A DNA stretch of 64,000 nt, taken from positions 1-64,000 of the forward strand of contig CANRDI010000005.1 in assembly GCA_947629335.1 (NCBI GenBank). The letters are read 5' to 3'. The notes beneath the pieces were generated by a model. The model had not been told where the DNA came from. It did not search any database and worked only from the letters and a program-made list of their open reading frames with translations. This stretch comes from an uncultured Clostridia bacterium. GTDB taxonomy: Bacteria > Bacillota > Clostridia > Oscillospirales > Ruminococcaceae. The translations under genes and the position numbers were made by a program. Positions 52,486-58,757 of the stretch are shown piece after piece (the first letter of the stretch is position 1; every line of letters begins with the position of its first letter).

Positions 52486-52545
52486 CCGCCGCAGGACCTC
52501 GGCGGTTTATTCAGCATTAAGCCGCCGATAACCTTACGGCGGCTT
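52486..52545 (-). terminator. Two GC-rich hairpins between the ATPase gene and rnfC
   Basis: AAGCCGCCG / CGGCGGCTT (52519-52527 with 52537-52545) and CCGCCG / CGGCGG (52486-52491 with 52500-52505). On the minus strand they come about 31 bases after the sacsin-like gene ends and are followed by AATAAAATC, not a clear T run. They probably terminate or attenuate readthrough into rnf. Confidence 0.55.
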
Positions 52546-52575
52546 TGCGCTTAACTCTTATCTTATATTACTTAT

Positions 52576-55500
52576 TTACATCTGTATCTCGCCGATGTTT
52601 CCGACGCTTTTCACAGCGGAAGGCTTTACATTTTCCGCTCCTGCATTTTCTTCTGCCGGAGCGTCGTCGTCATTGCCAATGGGCTTTACATCGTCAACTT
52701 CCTCTTCTGCTTCGTCTCCTTCGCTCTCAGAAGCCTCGGCATTTGAATAGTTGTCCTCGTACCATTTTGCCGCCATCATCGGACTTAACACAAAATCAAG
52801 ACTTTCCGTCGCTCCGTCATAAACGGTTTCCGTAGTCGTTATTCCGTTTTTATCCGGCTCGCAGATGTCATATGTTACCTGCTTGCGGAATTTAACACGT
52901 CCGTACATAAATTCGGGAGGTATCGGGTCCGTCTGCGATATTTCATCAAGCCATGTAAACGGCGACATTCCGCCAATGCTTATATCATCGAAGATCCAAC
53001 CCGCCGCAGCGCTCGCGTCATTATGGCACAAATACAGCGCGAAGCTGAACTTCTGTTCTTTTTCGCCGTTCATAATTCCGATCGAAAAACGCTTTACCTC
53101 AAAGCTGTTGAGAACTCCCGTAGCATATCCGCAGAACGGGCATACGCCGCCATAACCGTAGAGTTTTGCATTTATATCGCGCGCAAAATAGTTTCTATAA
53201 GCCTTCGGGTTATTCTTTTCATACTTTGCGACCTTTCTTACCTCTCCCCTGAGGAAGTCAAACTCTCTTCGGGTCATTGTCGGAACAGGCTTATAGTAAT
53301 ACGGAAGCTGGTCGGAAAGAATTATGTTAGGTTCTTCCGTACCCGAATACAGTCTGAAAAGCCTGTTTTTGTTCGTATCAGTCAGCAAAAACTCGACATA
53401 TGACGCATACTGCGGCTTTGACATACCGTCGCGGAGAATGACAAACTTGTCTGTTTTCTCGCGGTCGGTCGGGTCGAGCGAGTTTTCAATGCCGACGATC
53501 TTCATAAGCTTGTTATTTGAATCAAGAAGGGCGATCTTATCCATTCCGAGGTCGCAAATGAAGATCTTATTGAGCTTTGCTCTTATCTCTGATGTCGAAG
53601 GACACTCCGGAAGAGCCTCTTTAATCTCAGCAAGATCAAATGTAAATCTTCCGGGAGAATATGTAAAGTCGAAACTTCTGTTATTAAACAGCCCGCTCTC
53701 GATAAGCGAATAAACGTCTCCTACTATTTCAAGCAGCTCGGAGTTTGTAATGGCAGGAGGTATCATAAACTGCTTTCCGTATACCGAGAAACGATAGCGC
53801 TTATTTATATCAAGAGCAAGCGTTACATCTCCGCCCTGACTCTTTATTTCTTTAAGGAACGTAACGGTATCCTTTCCGTTTGAGAAAGAGTTTACCATAA
53901 GAGTTACGACCTGATTGAAGATCTGATGGTTTTCAAACCGCATCTCATGAGCCGCAAGGACGTCATAAGCCTTTTTCATATTTCCGATGTTTATCTTTGA
54001 AATTTCAAAACTTATATTTGCAGTTCCTGATGTCACGATAAACTGGAAATATTTCATCGAAATCCTGTAGTCCTCGCCGAACATTTCGTCAATAACATCA
54101 AATGCCTGTGCGAGAGCATTTTCGTCCTGAACAGAGCCGTTTACGATACAGTCGTTCAGCTTCAGGCTTATTATGCTTCTGAACGACACGCCAAGCTCAT
54201 AGTCCTTCAGCTTCTTTACGCCGTAAGACGGCATAAAATACTGATGCCCGTCCTGAAAGAAACTGTAGAGGAATTCCGTTCCGCCCTCGTCTGTTCCGAG
54301 AACGTTCCATTTATACTTTGCAATAAGAACATGGTTGTCGTCTTTTCCATACCATGAGTTCATCTGTTCGATGTCTGCATACAGCGCCTTTGCCGCTTCT
54401 CCGCTCTCATGTTCTTCTTTAGTTACGCCCGCTCTCTCGCTAAAAAAGCCGTTCTTGCGAAGCTCTCCGAATTGAACGGGCTGTTCGCTGTGAGGAAAGA
54501 GTATAGAAACGCTGTTTCCGAAGCGCTCACGAAGTCCTTTTGCAATCTTGCTTGTGGTCACATAGTTATAGAAGAATTCAAATACATACTGTCTGGGGCG
54601 GAGCATATAATTGCCCTCGGACTGAGGATTTGCAATAAGCTCCAGAACGAACAGCTTTTTAAACTCGTCCGCAACATAAAGTATACCCTTTTCGATTTTT
54701 GCAGCGCATTCTTCGAGAGAATCATATTTTATACCCGAACGGTTGTTTGTAATATATTTATTCGGGACAGACACGAAGAATGCCGAGAGCTGTTCATCGA
54801 CAAATTCCTTGCTGTCTGAGCGGACAAAACCCGTAAGCTCAAAGGTCGAAAAATAGTTATATTTTGTCATAAGGACTTTTCCCGCTTCGCGCTTGTTGTT
54901 TGAAATAGCAAACGGGATTATATAGGTAAATCCGTCGTGTTCCGAATGGATAAAGTCCGCTACGCTCTTTCCGTTTTCGAGGAAACGGATCTTTGTTATA
55001 TCGCTTCCCTCTTTGCGGTTGTTGAAAAGTTTATAAACGACCTCGCCGCGCCCGTAGTTTGCAATAGCGATATTGAACGTGCGGTCGAAGCATTCCTCGT
55101 CGTCCACCGATTTAAGGTTCTTTTTCCTTACGAAAGCGAAACACAGATCCACCATATTCATATAGCTGCCCTTTTTGGAGCAGATCGTGCGCAGATTTTC
55201 GTGAAGCGTCTGCTGTTCGTCCAGAGGCAGAGCAAACATAATTTCCGTGTTTTTGAACGGCTCGGCGTTGAGCTGTAAGTCGCGCACTTTAAGCACGCCG
55301 TCGTCGTTTACAACGCGCAGACGATAGCTGTTCGACTTCATTTCAAACCAATCGACATTCAAAAATACGCTCTTAGCGCCCAGACCGAAGCGGCCTTCGC
55401 GCTTTCTATCGCCGTCGTTTCGTCCTATGGAAAGATAGTAGAACACCTGTTCGAGCTTAAAGCCGACTTCGTTATAATTCAGTCTTACCTTTCCGTCGTC

Positions 55501-55803
55501 AAGAAAGTCTACTTCTATCTTTATGTCCTTTTCGTCATAATCGCATCCGAAAATATTCTGAAAAAGCTCGCGGATAATGGATTCGCGCGGATAATCGTTC
55601 GCCAGATTTACCGCGTTTATCGCGCCTCTGCCCGCGTACATATTGTTAAAATATTCCTTAAACGCCGAATCGTCCGCTTCGCCGTTACGGATTTTCTGTT
55701 CGATCTCCTCGATGACCGCCTTTATTCCTTCTTTGTCGCCGGCGGTGTTCCGCTCAAAGAAATCACCCAAAAGTCTTGTAACTGTTTCGCTGCTTGCGCT
55801 CAT
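52576..55803 (-). CDS. Large sacsin/Hsp90-type (GHKL) ATPase of unknown function
   Basis: 1075 residues. The N-terminal ATPase has the N-box IIRELFQN (76-83, Glu79 and Asn83), the sacsin-style second box LNYNEVGF (108-115), and SIGRNDGDRKREGRFGLGAKS (125-145) as lid and glycine-rich box. This is the Bergerat fold as used by sacsin and Hsp90-like proteins, not by histidine kinases. About 700 residues of unrecognised sequence follow. A CPFCG pair near 888 with CH near 925 may bind zinc. The last about 60 residues are acidic. It lies 70 bases after a helicase-like gene in one operon. A role in defence or nucleic-acid processing is inferred from that pairing. Confidence 0.72.
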   Translation of the reverse strand: MSASSETVTRLLGDFFERNTAGDKEGIKAVIEEIEQKIRNGEADDSAFKEYFNNMYAGRGAINAVNLANDYPRESIIRELFQNIFGCDYDEKDIKIEVDFLDDGKVRLNYNEVGFKLEQVFYYLSIGRNDGDRKREGRFGLGAKSVFLNVDWFEMKSNSYRLRVVNDDGVLKVRDLQLNAEPFKNTEIMFALPLDEQQTLHENLRTICSKKGSYMNMVDLCFAFVRKKNLKSVDDEECFDRTFNIAIANYGRGEVVYKLFNNRKEGSDITKIRFLENGKSVADFIHSEHDGFTYIIPFAISNNKREAGKVLMTKYNYFSTFELTGFVRSDSKEFVDEQLSAFFVSVPNKYITNNRSGIKYDSLEECAAKIEKGILYVADEFKKLFVLELIANPQSEGNYMLRPRQYVFEFFYNYVTTSKIAKGLRERFGNSVSILFPHSEQPVQFGELRKNGFFSERAGVTKEEHESGEAAKALYADIEQMNSWYGKDDNHVLIAKYKWNVLGTDEGGTEFLYSFFQDGHQYFMPSYGVKKLKDYELGVSFRSIISLKLNDCIVNGSVQDENALAQAFDVIDEMFGEDYRISMKYFQFIVTSGTANISFEISKINIGNMKKAYDVLAAHEMRFENHQIFNQVVTLMVNSFSNGKDTVTFLKEIKSQGGDVTLALDINKRYRFSVYGKQFMIPPAITNSELLEIVGDVYSLIESGLFNNRSFDFTYSPGRFTFDLAEIKEALPECPSTSEIRAKLNKIFICDLGMDKIALLDSNNKLMKIVGIENSLDPTDREKTDKFVILRDGMSKPQYASYVEFLLTDTNKNRLFRLYSGTEEPNIILSDQLPYYYKPVPTMTRREFDFLRGEVRKVAKYEKNNPKAYRNYFARDINAKLYGYGGVCPFCGYATGVLNSFEVKRFSIGIMNGEKEQKFSFALYLCHNDASAAAGWIFDDISIGGMSPFTWLDEISQTDPIPPEFMYGRVKFRKQVTYDICEPDKNGITTTETVYDGATESLDFVLSPMMAAKWYEDNYSNAEASESEGDEAEEEVDDVKPIGNDDDAPAEENAGAENVKPSAVKSVGNIGEIQM

Positions 55804-55873
55804 ATATTCGCCTCATTTCTCCGCGCGTGGTCTGTCTCGCGCGGGTTTTATTCTGAGCTAAAATCTTTTAGCG

Positions 55874-57829
55874 TCAGATCCCGTCATTGAAGATCCTTAT
55901 ATATTCTCTGAACTGATACCCCGAATTTCTCTGTTTTTCGCGGTATTTCCATATTCCGTAGATAACGGGATACTGGATACAATCGTTAAGCTCGCTGACT
56001 GCATTCTTTATCTTAATGTGGAAATCTTTATCGTCTTTCATTGCGTCAACTTCCGCCTTTGCGTCTTCGAGACCCTTTACCGCCTCGGACGCAAACGGCT
56101 GGTTTGAATAAGAACTGTCGGAGAACGACGCCGCCATTTCGTCGCGCGAAAGAAGTTTTGCGATCTTTCCGTCCCGATCTATCAGGCACAATCCCTCAAG
56201 CTCGTTCATTGCCGCGGCTATATCCGCCGCTGTGGAGCTGTCGTTTATGCCGAGAAGAGTATAAATCTTTTCGAGATTTTTCTCCGCAAAATCGGCAAGC
56301 TGTTTCGTGTTTGATATTCCGTCATCGTCGACAAGTGAAAAATCAGCCTTTATCTTCTTTATAAAGTCGAAGCCCGAATCGGTCTGTTTCGCATGATCCC
56401 TGATGTATTTGAGAGAGCTTACAAGACCCGCCATAAACACGCCTTTTTCTTTTATATCAAACATGATATTTCTTATCGGAAGAGTTCCGCAAAAAGCGTC
56501 CGCTATGCTTCTGCAAAGATTTTTCTCTAAAATGACCGTATCGAATACTTTATTTGAATCGCGGAAGATAACAAATTTTCTGTGCTTTTCGTGCTTAAAT
56601 CCGTGGCGGGTCATTCTCTTTTCAAGAACCGCCGCCGAGAACGGAAGCTCATAGTTTATTACACAGCTTACCGTCTGCATACCTTCGCCCGTTGTCGAAA
56701 GATTATCCATACCGATAATTACACGCGGTCTTTCGTCCACATCTGTATCTACCGAGAGCTTTTTTATGATGACCTCAGGGGTTATCGTCTCGCCTCTTTC
56801 CACAAAGACCTGACTTCCGTAAAGAGCGGTAAAGACTTTTCTGAGGTACTCTATTGTGTTTTTATTGCAGCAGTAGATCATAATTCTCGAATCGTCGTCC
56901 TCAAGAATTTCCGCACTGTATTTCAAAAGCGCCTCAAGTTTTTTGTCAAGTTCAGCCAAATCTTCTACATCCGAACGCGTAAAATAAGACTTCATATAAA
57001 TTTTCTTCTGCCTGTCAAACTTATCGACGTCATACTGCTCGAAAATATTTCCCCCGTAGGTATATGTCGGAAGACCCGAACGCAGGTCAACACGGCGTCT
57101 GAACGTATTTATAACTGAATCCTCAAAACTGTAGTCGAGGAAAACAACCTCTCTTTTATAGTCGTCTGAATAAACAAGCGGATCGTAATATCTCATTACC
57201 GGACTTTCGTCATTGAGCGCACAGGCAGATGTGTCGAGCGCCATTGAGCATACCGCGTCGGCTTTCGCGCTGTCGGAAAGGATACTCTTTATAAGATCCG
57301 AAAGGTCAGCTTTATCGCTGTCTGATTTTGCGGGGAACGGAGCGTTTATAAACAGCTTATCCGCTTTCCAGATTATGTGCTTTCTGTAGCCTATGTAGTC
57401 GGGAACGTCGTTATTAAGCTCTTCGTCTATTATAATAAGATCCCACTTTACTGTTTCTTTTACCTTTTGTTTGAAAACATTATCCGAAAACAGGGTGTTC
57501 TTTGACATCAGGAAAAGTCCCGCGCCCTCTTCGTCAAAGAACAAAAGGGCATTATGAGCGCCGGAGACCATTTTAAAATCGGCGCCGATACTCGTAATAA
57601 ACATTCTGTACCAGCTGTACAATTCGCTCTCGTTTGTTATGACAAGAATGTTCGGATTTTCCTTTTCCGCAAGGACGTCGTATACACTAAGCGCGCACTT
57701 AACATATTTTTCCGAGCCGAATTCTCCGCAGTTAAGCGCGAATCCGAACTTTCGCAGTTTTTCTGCCGCAGCAAGATTAGCCGCGGACAAATTCTGACCG
57801 ACGAGCGGTATCCATTTAAAGTTGCCCAA
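55874..57829 (-). CDS. Degenerate SNF2-like (SF2) helicase
   Basis: 651 residues. Motif II is LIIIDEEL (131-138). The second RecA domain is well kept: SRIMIYCCNKNTIEYLRK (motif IV-like, about 314-331), DNLSTTGEGMQTVSCVINYE (V, 375-394) and LEKRMTRHGFKHEKH (VI, 402-416), matching the SNF2 pattern GLNLQ...VINYDLPWNP..LEQR. The Walker A position reads CGEFGSEKYVK (34-44) and lacks a normal GKT, so ATP hydrolysis may be lost or unusual. Motif VI also lacks the second Arg of GRxxR. The start is TTG with GGAGGT 8 bases ahead and a promoter at 57899-57927. It is paired with the sacsin-like ATPase. Confidence 0.65.
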   Translation of the reverse strand: MGNFKWIPLVGQNLSAANLAAAEKLRKFGFALNCGEFGSEKYVKCALSVYDVLAEKENPNILVITNESELYSWYRMFITSIGADFKMVSGAHNALLFFDEEGAGLFLMSKNTLFSDNVFKQKVKETVKWDLIIIDEELNNDVPDYIGYRKHIIWKADKLFINAPFPAKSDSDKADLSDLIKSILSDSAKADAVCSMALDTSACALNDESPVMRYYDPLVYSDDYKREVVFLDYSFEDSVINTFRRRVDLRSGLPTYTYGGNIFEQYDVDKFDRQKKIYMKSYFTRSDVEDLAELDKKLEALLKYSAEILEDDDSRIMIYCCNKNTIEYLRKVFTALYGSQVFVERGETITPEVIIKKLSVDTDVDERPRVIIGMDNLSTTGEGMQTVSCVINYELPFSAAVLEKRMTRHGFKHEKHRKFVIFRDSNKVFDTVILEKNLCRSIADAFCGTLPIRNIMFDIKEKGVFMAGLVSSLKYIRDHAKQTDSGFDFIKKIKADFSLVDDDGISNTKQLADFAEKNLEKIYTLLGINDSSTAADIAAAMNELEGLCLIDRDGKIAKLLSRDEMAASFSDSSYSNQPFASEAVKGLEDAKAEVDAMKDDKDFHIKIKNAVSELNDCIQYPVIYGIWKYREKQRNSGYQFREYIRIFNDGI

Positions 57830-57898
57830 TATAACGCACCTCCGAATTTTTCGTCATTTACAGCATGGTCTGAAAATGAGCGCAATTTGCTATCTTTA

Positions 57899-57927
57899 AT
57901 TATACACCAAATCCGAACTTATTACAA
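57899..57927 (-). promoter_or_regulatory. Promoter of the helicase-ATPase operon
   Basis: On the minus strand: -35 TTGTAA (57922-57927), 17-base spacer, -10 TATAAT (57899-57904). The leader is about 60 bases. The rest of the 334-base divergent gap (57928-58108) is AT-rich and otherwise empty. Confidence 0.78.
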
Positions 57928-58108
57928 GTATGTCAACCCACATAAAACTATCAAAATCTGAATATAATTTTTTGTGCATTTTTGACAAAACTCCAAAAAA
58001 AGAAGGAAAATTTGTACATTTCAGAGAATAATCACCGTAAACAAAGCCTTAAATTAACTATATACAACACACTAAAGAAAATAATTGAAAAATTGTCACA
58101 TATTACCA

Positions 58109-58137: not shown

Positions 58138-58163
58138 ATATACAGAGGGTGAGGTAATTGCAA

Positions 58164-58757
58164 ATGTTAAAAGCTGTTTTATCAAAGAAAAACATTTTTG
58201 ACTGCGGAGATTATATTTCATGCGTTTCAGACCTTATAGAAAACGAAAACATCCTTAAACTCAGGGATTTCAGTCACCATATCGGTACGACACGTTATCA
58301 GCATTCGCTGAATGTTTCATATTATAATTTTCTTCTGTGCAGGTTTCTGGGGCTTGACGCAAAAAGCGCGGCGCGCGCGGGACTTATGCATGATCTTTTT
58401 TTCTACGACCGAAGGAAACATGAAAAAGGCATAGGCGAGAGATCGCATATTTCAGAACATCCTAAGATCGCGTTTTTCAATGCCTCCGAAATGTTTTCAA
58501 TAAGCGAGCTTGAAGGAGATATGATCGCAAATCATATGTGGCCTGCCACTTTACACCTTCCGAAGCACAGAGAAGCGTTTGTAATTACGTTTGTAGATAA
58601 ATTCTGCGCAGTCGCGGAGGTCGCGGTCAGCGTAAAGACAAAAATTTCGAGAAAACGCCGAAAAGAATATGTAAACGCCGTTTCCTCGTCAGAACGCGCG
58701 CTCTCAGCGGCAAAGGCAGATAATATGCAGGAGCAGCCCGCTGAAAGCAAAGTATAA
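58164..58757 (+). CDS. HD-domain (HDIG) hydrolase
   Basis: 197 residues. The metal site is His47 (RYQHSLNVSYY), the HD pair His76-Asp77 (GLMHDLFFYD), and later HMWP and FVDKFCA. Single-domain HD proteins hydrolyse phosphate esters of nucleotides; the substrate is unknown. ATG 58164 has GAGG 9 bases ahead; TTG 58158 is too close. It is divergent from the helicase-ATPase pair by 334 bases, and any link with that pair is speculative. A strong hairpin follows. Confidence 0.85.
   Translation: MLKAVLSKKNIFDCGDYISCVSDLIENENILKLRDFSHHIGTTRYQHSLNVSYYNFLLCRFLGLDAKSAARAGLMHDLFFYDRRKHEKGIGERSHISEHPKIAFFNASEMFSISELEGDMIANHMWPATLHLPKHREAFVITFVDKFCAVAEVAVSVKTKISRKRRKEYVNAVSSSERALSAAKADNMQEQPAESKV

Follow-up and report, generated by a model that had tools for sequence, protein, structure and literature searches.

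A core gene pair of two clostridial genera encoding a predicted sacsin/Hsp90-type GHKL ATPase and an SNF2-fold partner with an eroded ATP site

A 64,000-nucleotide stretch of the genome of an uncultured Clostridia bacterium (GenBank assembly GCA_947629335.1, contig CANRDI010000005.1, positions 1 to 64,000; hereafter the window) carries two adjoining genes on its minus strand: gene B (55874..57829; TTG start, 651 amino acids), which encodes a predicted SNF2-fold protein with an eroded ATP site, and, 70 bases behind it, gene A (52576..55803; ATG start, 1075 amino acids), which encodes a predicted GHKL ATPase of the sacsin/Hsp90 type. A first-pass annotation of this DNA had described the same two-gene layout and spacing, which the open reading frames bear out, and had raised the possibility of a new defence or chaperone-remodelling module. 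We report that the pair is core in two genera yet restricted within their family. On balance we are evenly divided over the reading we put forward here, namely that the two genes form one clade-specific core machine in which GHKL-driven remodelling takes place on a non-hydrolysing SNF2 platform, with a housekeeping role at the chromosome or at nucleoprotein.

Distribution, linkage and descent of the pair

In the genus of the window, A was present in 41 of 43 genomes and B in 40 of 43, and each was found in all 27 good genomes (completeness of 90% or more, contamination of 5% or less). In a second genus, for which A only was counted, the gene was present in 69 of 71 genomes and in all 41 of the good ones. 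The wider samples returned A in 6 of 197 genomes (3 of 125 genera) for the family, in 16 of 394 genomes (2 of 168 genera) for the order and in 1 of 398 genomes, the window's own, for the phylum. Of the outcome that the first-pass annotation had set against its own proposal, universal core genes with a known housekeeping role, only the first half was observed: the pair is core across its clade, and no housekeeping role is known for it.

Scanning named genomes yielded 100 relatives, and 80 loci were kept, 36 placed in the genus by an identity of at least 61% and 44 outside it. Their hosts are labelled mostly as Oscillospiraceae, Ruminiclostridium or Clostridia metagenome bins, several of the labels giving a gut or rumen site, and a few are labelled otherwise. 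Both genes were present at 71 of the 80 loci and B lay directly 5' of A at every one of these 71; the nine remaining loci are cut by contig ends (six with A only, three with B only), and at one locus (L113) A is split over two frames. Of 41 loci from outside the genus, 39 have -4 to 17 bases between the two genes; the spacing at the other two is 84 bases and, by the longest-frame start, -125 bases.

No A was found on plasmids, in a search made with A and not with B, or on viral contigs scanned with A and its profile, where pattern scans catch mainly close relatives and B was not used as a query. Phage records searched with both proteins returned a single record for both, MT835670.1 (L064), which we do not accept as showing that phages carry the pair: it is a faecal scaffold, marked 'UNVERIFIED' and lacking annotation, on which the gene lengths around the pair match those of a chromosome (G132, L067), and although filed as a bacteriophage it is most likely bacterial chromosome.

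Descent was compared with that of RpoB, which was sought in 30 genomes and used from 26 (three fragmentary sequences and one genome without a match were dropped; tree support values were unused). A shared 19 of 23 splits with the RpoB tree and B shared 21 of 23, while the A and B trees had 20 of 23 in common. These trees fit vertical inheritance of the pair, with RpoB-like descent within its genera; they comprise pair-bearing genomes and do not separate one gain from several. Pairwise ratios of nonsynonymous to synonymous substitution among three close relatives were 0.06-0.12 for A and B vs 0.04-0.09 for the compared neighbours, indicative of purifying selection on both genes. The GC content of A (0.45) and of B (0.44) lies within about one standard deviation of that of 22 other window genes (0.46, standard deviation 0.02), and their composition is native to the host. 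Because of this distribution and the species-like descent in its genera, we regard the pair as core and not as a mobile defence system. Taken as a mobile element, the earlier suggested defence module is not supported by the presence of A in every good genome of both genera (27 of 27 and 41 of 41), its RpoB-like descent and native composition, the lack of recognised defence neighbours, and the absence of A from the plasmids and viral contigs searched.

Predicted anatomy of the two proteins

The AlphaFold model of A aligns over residues of about 54-432 (54508..55644; this and all parts of the two-gene unit given below lie on the minus strand unless stated otherwise) with the N-terminal and middle domains of Hsp90, TopoVI-B and GyrB, corresponding to a GHKL ATP-binding domain followed by a middle domain. 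Besides this fold, A has further GHKL hallmarks: an ExxxN N-box (E79-L-F-Q-N83; 55555..55569), in which E79, Q82 and N83 are present in all 48 sequences over which conservation was scored, and a glycine-rich ATP lid (G137-RFGLGAK-S145; 55369..55395), in which G137, R138, F139, G140, G142, K144 and S145 are each kept in 48 of 48. T186 is likewise invariant (48/48), as is R355 in the middle domain (54739..54741; 48/48), a candidate catalytic arginine whose role we presume from Hsp90 and sacsin. Taken together, the conserved motifs and the predicted fold argue that A is a sacsin/Hsp90-type GHKL ATPase, in agreement with the first-pass annotation. The protein is like the N-terminal ATPase domain of sacsin (NF047352) and like Hsp90/HtpG in its N-box, ATP lid and layout of N-terminal and middle domains; it is unlike them in scoring below the curated cut-off (NCBIfam P_loop_sacsin on residues 75-154: E value 1.5e-4, 22.2 bits against a cut-off of 50), in carrying a glutamate for the aspartate of DxG, and in its long, unmatched C-terminal part.

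Other searches with A gave little. In a Pfam scan at E up to 1 the sole match was Syja_N (E 0.0098), which lies below its family cut-off and was treated as chance, and no MORC model was among the matches; in Pfam models, MORC proteins combine a MORC-type GHKL domain with an S5 module. Sequence searches of solved structures with A alone and with its profile returned nothing at E up to 1, and neither sacsin nor MORC was among the structures that VIA-align listed for A, a listing that cannot show absence. Neither protein had a match in PHROGs. PADLOC named no system, its TmtA model reaching E 0.013 against A across no more than 75 residues, and the domain and defence model scans recognised no nuclease or other effector domain in either protein. 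Near the C terminus, three cysteines present in 48 of 48 sequences (C888-x2-C891 ... C926; 53026..53142) form a candidate site that may bind metal. The tail at residues 1021-1075 (52579..52743) is modelled with low confidence, at a predicted local distance difference test (pLDDT) score of about 29, and in the alignment it is variable inside the genus and missing from several relatives. A separate 1597-amino-acid frame (G1082:C55:12644-14944) has two stretches like the ATPase domain of A and is another sacsin-like protein.

The structure model of B (pLDDT 89.6; predicted template modelling score, pTM, 0.91) matches SNF2 motors over residues of about 3-473 (56411..57823), a region with two RecA-like lobes of the SNF2 type and an extension, and its top Foldseek match is RapA (8spg, E 6.9e-13). 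Pfam recognised Helicase_C only below its cut-off, and a sequence search of solved structures with B alone gave nothing at E up to 1. A profile of B and 57 relatives, the 58 sequences over which its conservation was scored, matched the C-terminal lobes of DEAD-box proteins and RapA (best E 2e-6 and 3.7e-6); RapA also gave a second, weak match that spans the P-loop region (i-Evalue 1.9). Helicase models of DISARM, Dpd, Hma and BREX matched stretches of the C-terminal lobe only (best E 1.7e-7) and did not cover the whole protein.

The catalytic motifs of B are degenerate. At the Walker A remnant EFGSEKYVK (residues 36-44; 57698..57724), B proteins of the genus have lost the third glycine and the serine or threonine of the P-loop. 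In motif II, LIIIDEEL (131-138; 57416..57439), D135 is present in 58 of 58 sequences and E136 in 20 of 58: the window and most members of the genus keep the DE pair, and most relatives outside the genus have lost its glutamate. Motif VI, LEKRMTRHG (402-410; 56600..56626), keeps R405 in 58 of 58 and R408 in 50 of 58. A complete SNF2 ATP site (K[ST] with DE) was found in none of the 58 sequences, one of which is unreadable at motif I. B is like RapA and the SNF2 remodellers in the fold of both lobes, and unlike them in having a degenerate P-loop, motif II or both and in a model that begins at lobe 1; RapA has N-terminal Tudor-like domains and an active ATPase. These data, together with the predicted fold, indicate that B has the SNF2 fold and that its Walker A loop is ruined, and the earlier description of B as a degenerate SNF2 protein stands.

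Proposed mechanism, alternatives and possible ancestry

From their anatomy, A would be the only motor of the two proteins and B a platform that grips nucleoprotein. A would act as an ATP-driven clamp of the sacsin/Hsp90 type that binds ATP in its Bergerat pocket, closes on itself through the middle domain and reshapes whatever it holds. B would keep a two-lobed SNF2 shape that grips DNA or nucleoprotein and, its own ATP hydrolysis having been lost, would serve as platform or targeting subunit, with A as the energy supply of the putative A-B complex. Passed on vertically, the pair would serve chromosomal or nucleoprotein housekeeping and not mobile anti-phage defence, and it may share ancestry with the GHKL and SNF2 pairs of conflict islands.

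Several observations weigh against this proposal. At the aspartate of DxG, which we take to be the adenine contact of GHKL ATPases, A has a glutamate in all 48 sequences (N111-E112-x-G114-F115), and its model has a pTM of 0.52, with some 590 residues past the middle domain lacking a fold assignment. A conflict gene limited to one clade could show a family distribution like that of A. Relative to RpoB, the median patristic distance is about 3.1 times as large for A and about 4.5 times as large for B, i.e., both evolve faster. The P-loop lysine of B (K41) is kept in 54 of 58 sequences and its magnesium-binding aspartate in all 58, and because of this B might still bind nucleotide or hydrolyse it in an odd way. 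The remaining points are the proximity of some loci to the division and cell wall (dcw) cluster, which is positional only, and the hairpin that lies between the two there.

The fast rates, together with the absence of the pair from most of the family, would suit a clade-fixed innate anti-phage defence, with phage nucleoprotein sensed or blocked by the two proteins and the genes core because they are always useful. Such a defence could also draw on the recurrence of GHKL and superfamily II helicase pairs in predicted restriction-modification operons, as excerpts of PMC2292703 describe it, and on a related accessory pair, described below, that sits on a plasmid beside PD-(D/E)XK, UvrD and type IIG restriction-modification genes and whose conflict link may be ancestral. 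We nevertheless consider it unlikely, given a pair without patchiness inside the two genera tested, its RpoB-congruent descent, no recognised defence neighbours in the window, no A on the plasmids or viral contigs searched, and two proteins in which the scans recognised neither a nuclease domain nor any other effector domain. Quite unlikely, in our view, is an Hsp90-like chaperone devoted to a protein client, such as one of the division or cell-wall machinery, with B as client adaptor and no nucleic acid involved. The closest solved folds of A do include Hsp90/HtpG, and the pair lies 5' of mraZ-rsmH at 16 of the 32 outside loci whose sequence extends 1.5 kb or more past A. Against this, the SNF2 fold of the partner and its invariant arginine in motif VI point to nucleoprotein, a terminator-like hairpin separates A from mraZ in the gaps inspected, and the dcw location is missing from the genus loci, as far as their flanks reach, and from the window genome.

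Less probable again is a machine with two motors, in which B would still be an ATPase with a non-canonical P-loop. The retention of K41, of D135 and of R405, and of DE in the window and most of its genus, would fit such an enzyme; the genus has nevertheless lost the third glycine and the serine or threonine of the loop, most relatives outside it have lost the glutamate of DE, and no complete set was found among the 58 B sequences, whereas both accessory relatives have one. Very improbable to us is a RapA-like RNA polymerase recycling factor in which A replaces the lost motor, although RapA is the top structural match of B and is among its best sequence matches. We keep to a core machine with A as its motor and B as its platform as the reading to be developed here.

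The dcw location deserves a fuller account. Genes mraZ and rsmH were found 3' of A at 16 of the 80 loci, all outside the genus, with mraZ 213-1273 bp away; at one such locus Pfam identified mraZ, rsmH, a penicillin-binding protein, a Mur ligase, mraY, ftsW and murG. None of the 36 genus loci had this location as far as their flanks reach, and the window genome has its dcw cluster on a different contig from the pair. The RpoB tree includes 16 genomes from outside the genus; since 8 of them have the location (L124, L120, L141, L149, L151, L155, L153 and L156), with one further genome (L148) offering too little sequence to judge, it is spread over several branches. Co-transcription of the pair with the dcw genes was not adopted, as a hairpin with a T-run was seen by eye before mraZ in all six gaps inspected, and we give the location little weight in the proposed mechanism. 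In L124, L141, L149, L153 and L156, palindromic ACACAATATATTGT-like boxes, which resemble NrdR boxes, were noticed by eye between the A stop codon and the terminator-like hairpin.

With respect to ancestry, a congener of the window genome (G214) carries an accessory pair, an 816-amino-acid SNF2 gene overlapping an 1117-amino-acid GHKL gene (L214:6063-11863), which was the only full-length match among the 43 genus genomes; none was found at E 1e-8 in 295 genomes of the order, a sample that did not include G214. PADLOC gave partial helicase matches only for this pair and no named system, and when a profile of the accessory ATPase was run against 398 phylum genomes, the A protein of the window was its sole match at E up to 1e-6. 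The accessory proteins were also searched in plasmids and the accessory ATPase in phages. A similar pair lies on the Lysinibacillus capsici plasmid pFN9B (NZ_CP106864.1, L216:3192-15081), the only plasmid record matched, where it adjoins PD-(D/E)XK, UvrD-like, integrase and type IIG restriction genes in what is a candidate defence island; viral contigs scanned with the accessory proteins yielded none, with pattern scans again catching mainly close relatives. The accessory pair shares with the core pair the gene order, SNF2 then GHKL, and, by eye, a C-terminal CxxC...C in both ATPases. It differs in its intact SNF2 motifs (both accessory SNF2 proteins keep DEVGTGK[TS] and DE[CA]H), in a GHKL D-x-G in place of E-x-G, in its rarity and in having a plasmid copy among restriction and nuclease genes. 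B aligned with the accessory SNF2 proteins over 357 columns (E 2.7e-21), to which generic SNF2 kinship contributes, and A with the accessory ATPase over about 130 columns (E 3.5e-7), all in the ATPase domain. Because the homology of A is limited to those columns, a common origin of the core and accessory pairs is unproven, a further point against the proposal.

Related gene associations have been predicted before. In excerpts, Iyer, Abhiman and Aravind (2008; PMC2292703) describe operons of restriction-modification systems that pair MORC or paraMORC GHKL ATPases with superfamily II helicases, one class of them SWI2/SNF2; the systems are portrayed as spreading laterally to a high degree and as having many nucleases and methylases. 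Genes A and B are like those operons, so far as the excerpts go, in that a GHKL ATPase gene adjoins a superfamily II helicase gene, and unlike them in their sacsin/Hsp90-like GHKL protein, in standing alone, in their core status and RpoB-like descent, and in their eroded SNF2 site. Excerpts of PMC3710099 mention both SNF2 and sacsin, and not as a pair of the A-B type. The open-licence literature searched contained no described bacterial or antiphage pair of this make-up, sacsin or GHKL with SNF2, which accords with the first-pass statement that no described system with exactly this pair was known to its author.

Domestication from conflict systems is possibly the origin of the core pair; the accessory pair and the published GHKL associations fit it, with the homology of A being limited. 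A fuller scenario, doubtful and offered tentatively, is that a mobile conflict module with an active SNF2 motor and a GHKL ATPase was domesticated in a gut lineage of the Oscillospiraceae type, perhaps beside dcw, and became an obligate chromosomal machine, its SNF2 protein decaying by different routes in different lineages to a non-hydrolysing platform and the Hsp90-like subunit taking over as sole motor. The result would be an independent bacterial analogue of GHKL-SNF2 (MORC-type) chromatin machinery; in plants, GHKL and SNF2 pairs are known from gene silencing (MORC6 and SNF2 proteins). A pair with the GHKL motor alone, universal in its genera and of species-like descent, would show how such systems turn to housekeeping, and would provide a minimal system, of two proteins, in which an Hsp90-like engine works on an SNF2 scaffold. 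With it, a core operon of uncultured, largely gut-dwelling bacteria gains a concrete biochemical hypothesis.

Promoter, 3' end and neighbouring genes

The promoter TTGTAA-17-TATAAT that the first-pass annotation had placed 5' of B was located at 57899..57927 and is kept at all 15 genus loci inspected (the window and 14 that we chose out of the 80-locus set), including some whose B is only about 50% identical; this conservation is good evidence that the promoter is used. The pattern TTGTAATN{12,16}TATAAT occurs once in the window vs 0.02 expected.

The same annotation had the unit end in a hairpin as a self-contained module. Two strong GC-rich hairpins do lie 3' of A (52486..52545); they have no T-tract on the minus strand, a terminator scan downstream of A found no terminator-like site on that strand, and the terminator-like site at 52486-52505 is in plus-strand orientation. 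Since, moreover, rnfC starts 107 bases past A on the same strand, read-through from A into rnfC is possible, and the claim holds for the hairpins and only in part for the self-contained end. Nineteen loci of other species in the genus or of relatives were drawn, and 11 of them have rnf genes 3' of A, as the window does.

The neighbours of the pair in the window are, by Pfam, Rnf, HD and protease genes, the six adjoining proteins being of the Rnf, HD, M16 and Lgt types. The HD-domain gene is divergent (58158-58757), and a relative of it adjoins B at 20 of the 80 loci, all within the genus. As a third member of the unit this gene was rejected, the HD genes near the pair in two genera being dissimilar (E 0.40). 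The motif TTTTTTGTGCA followed by an A/T-rich stretch occurs at 57968-57990 of the window, and the same motif was seen past the hairpin in L119, L124 and L149; it recurs in this way next to the pair in different genera.
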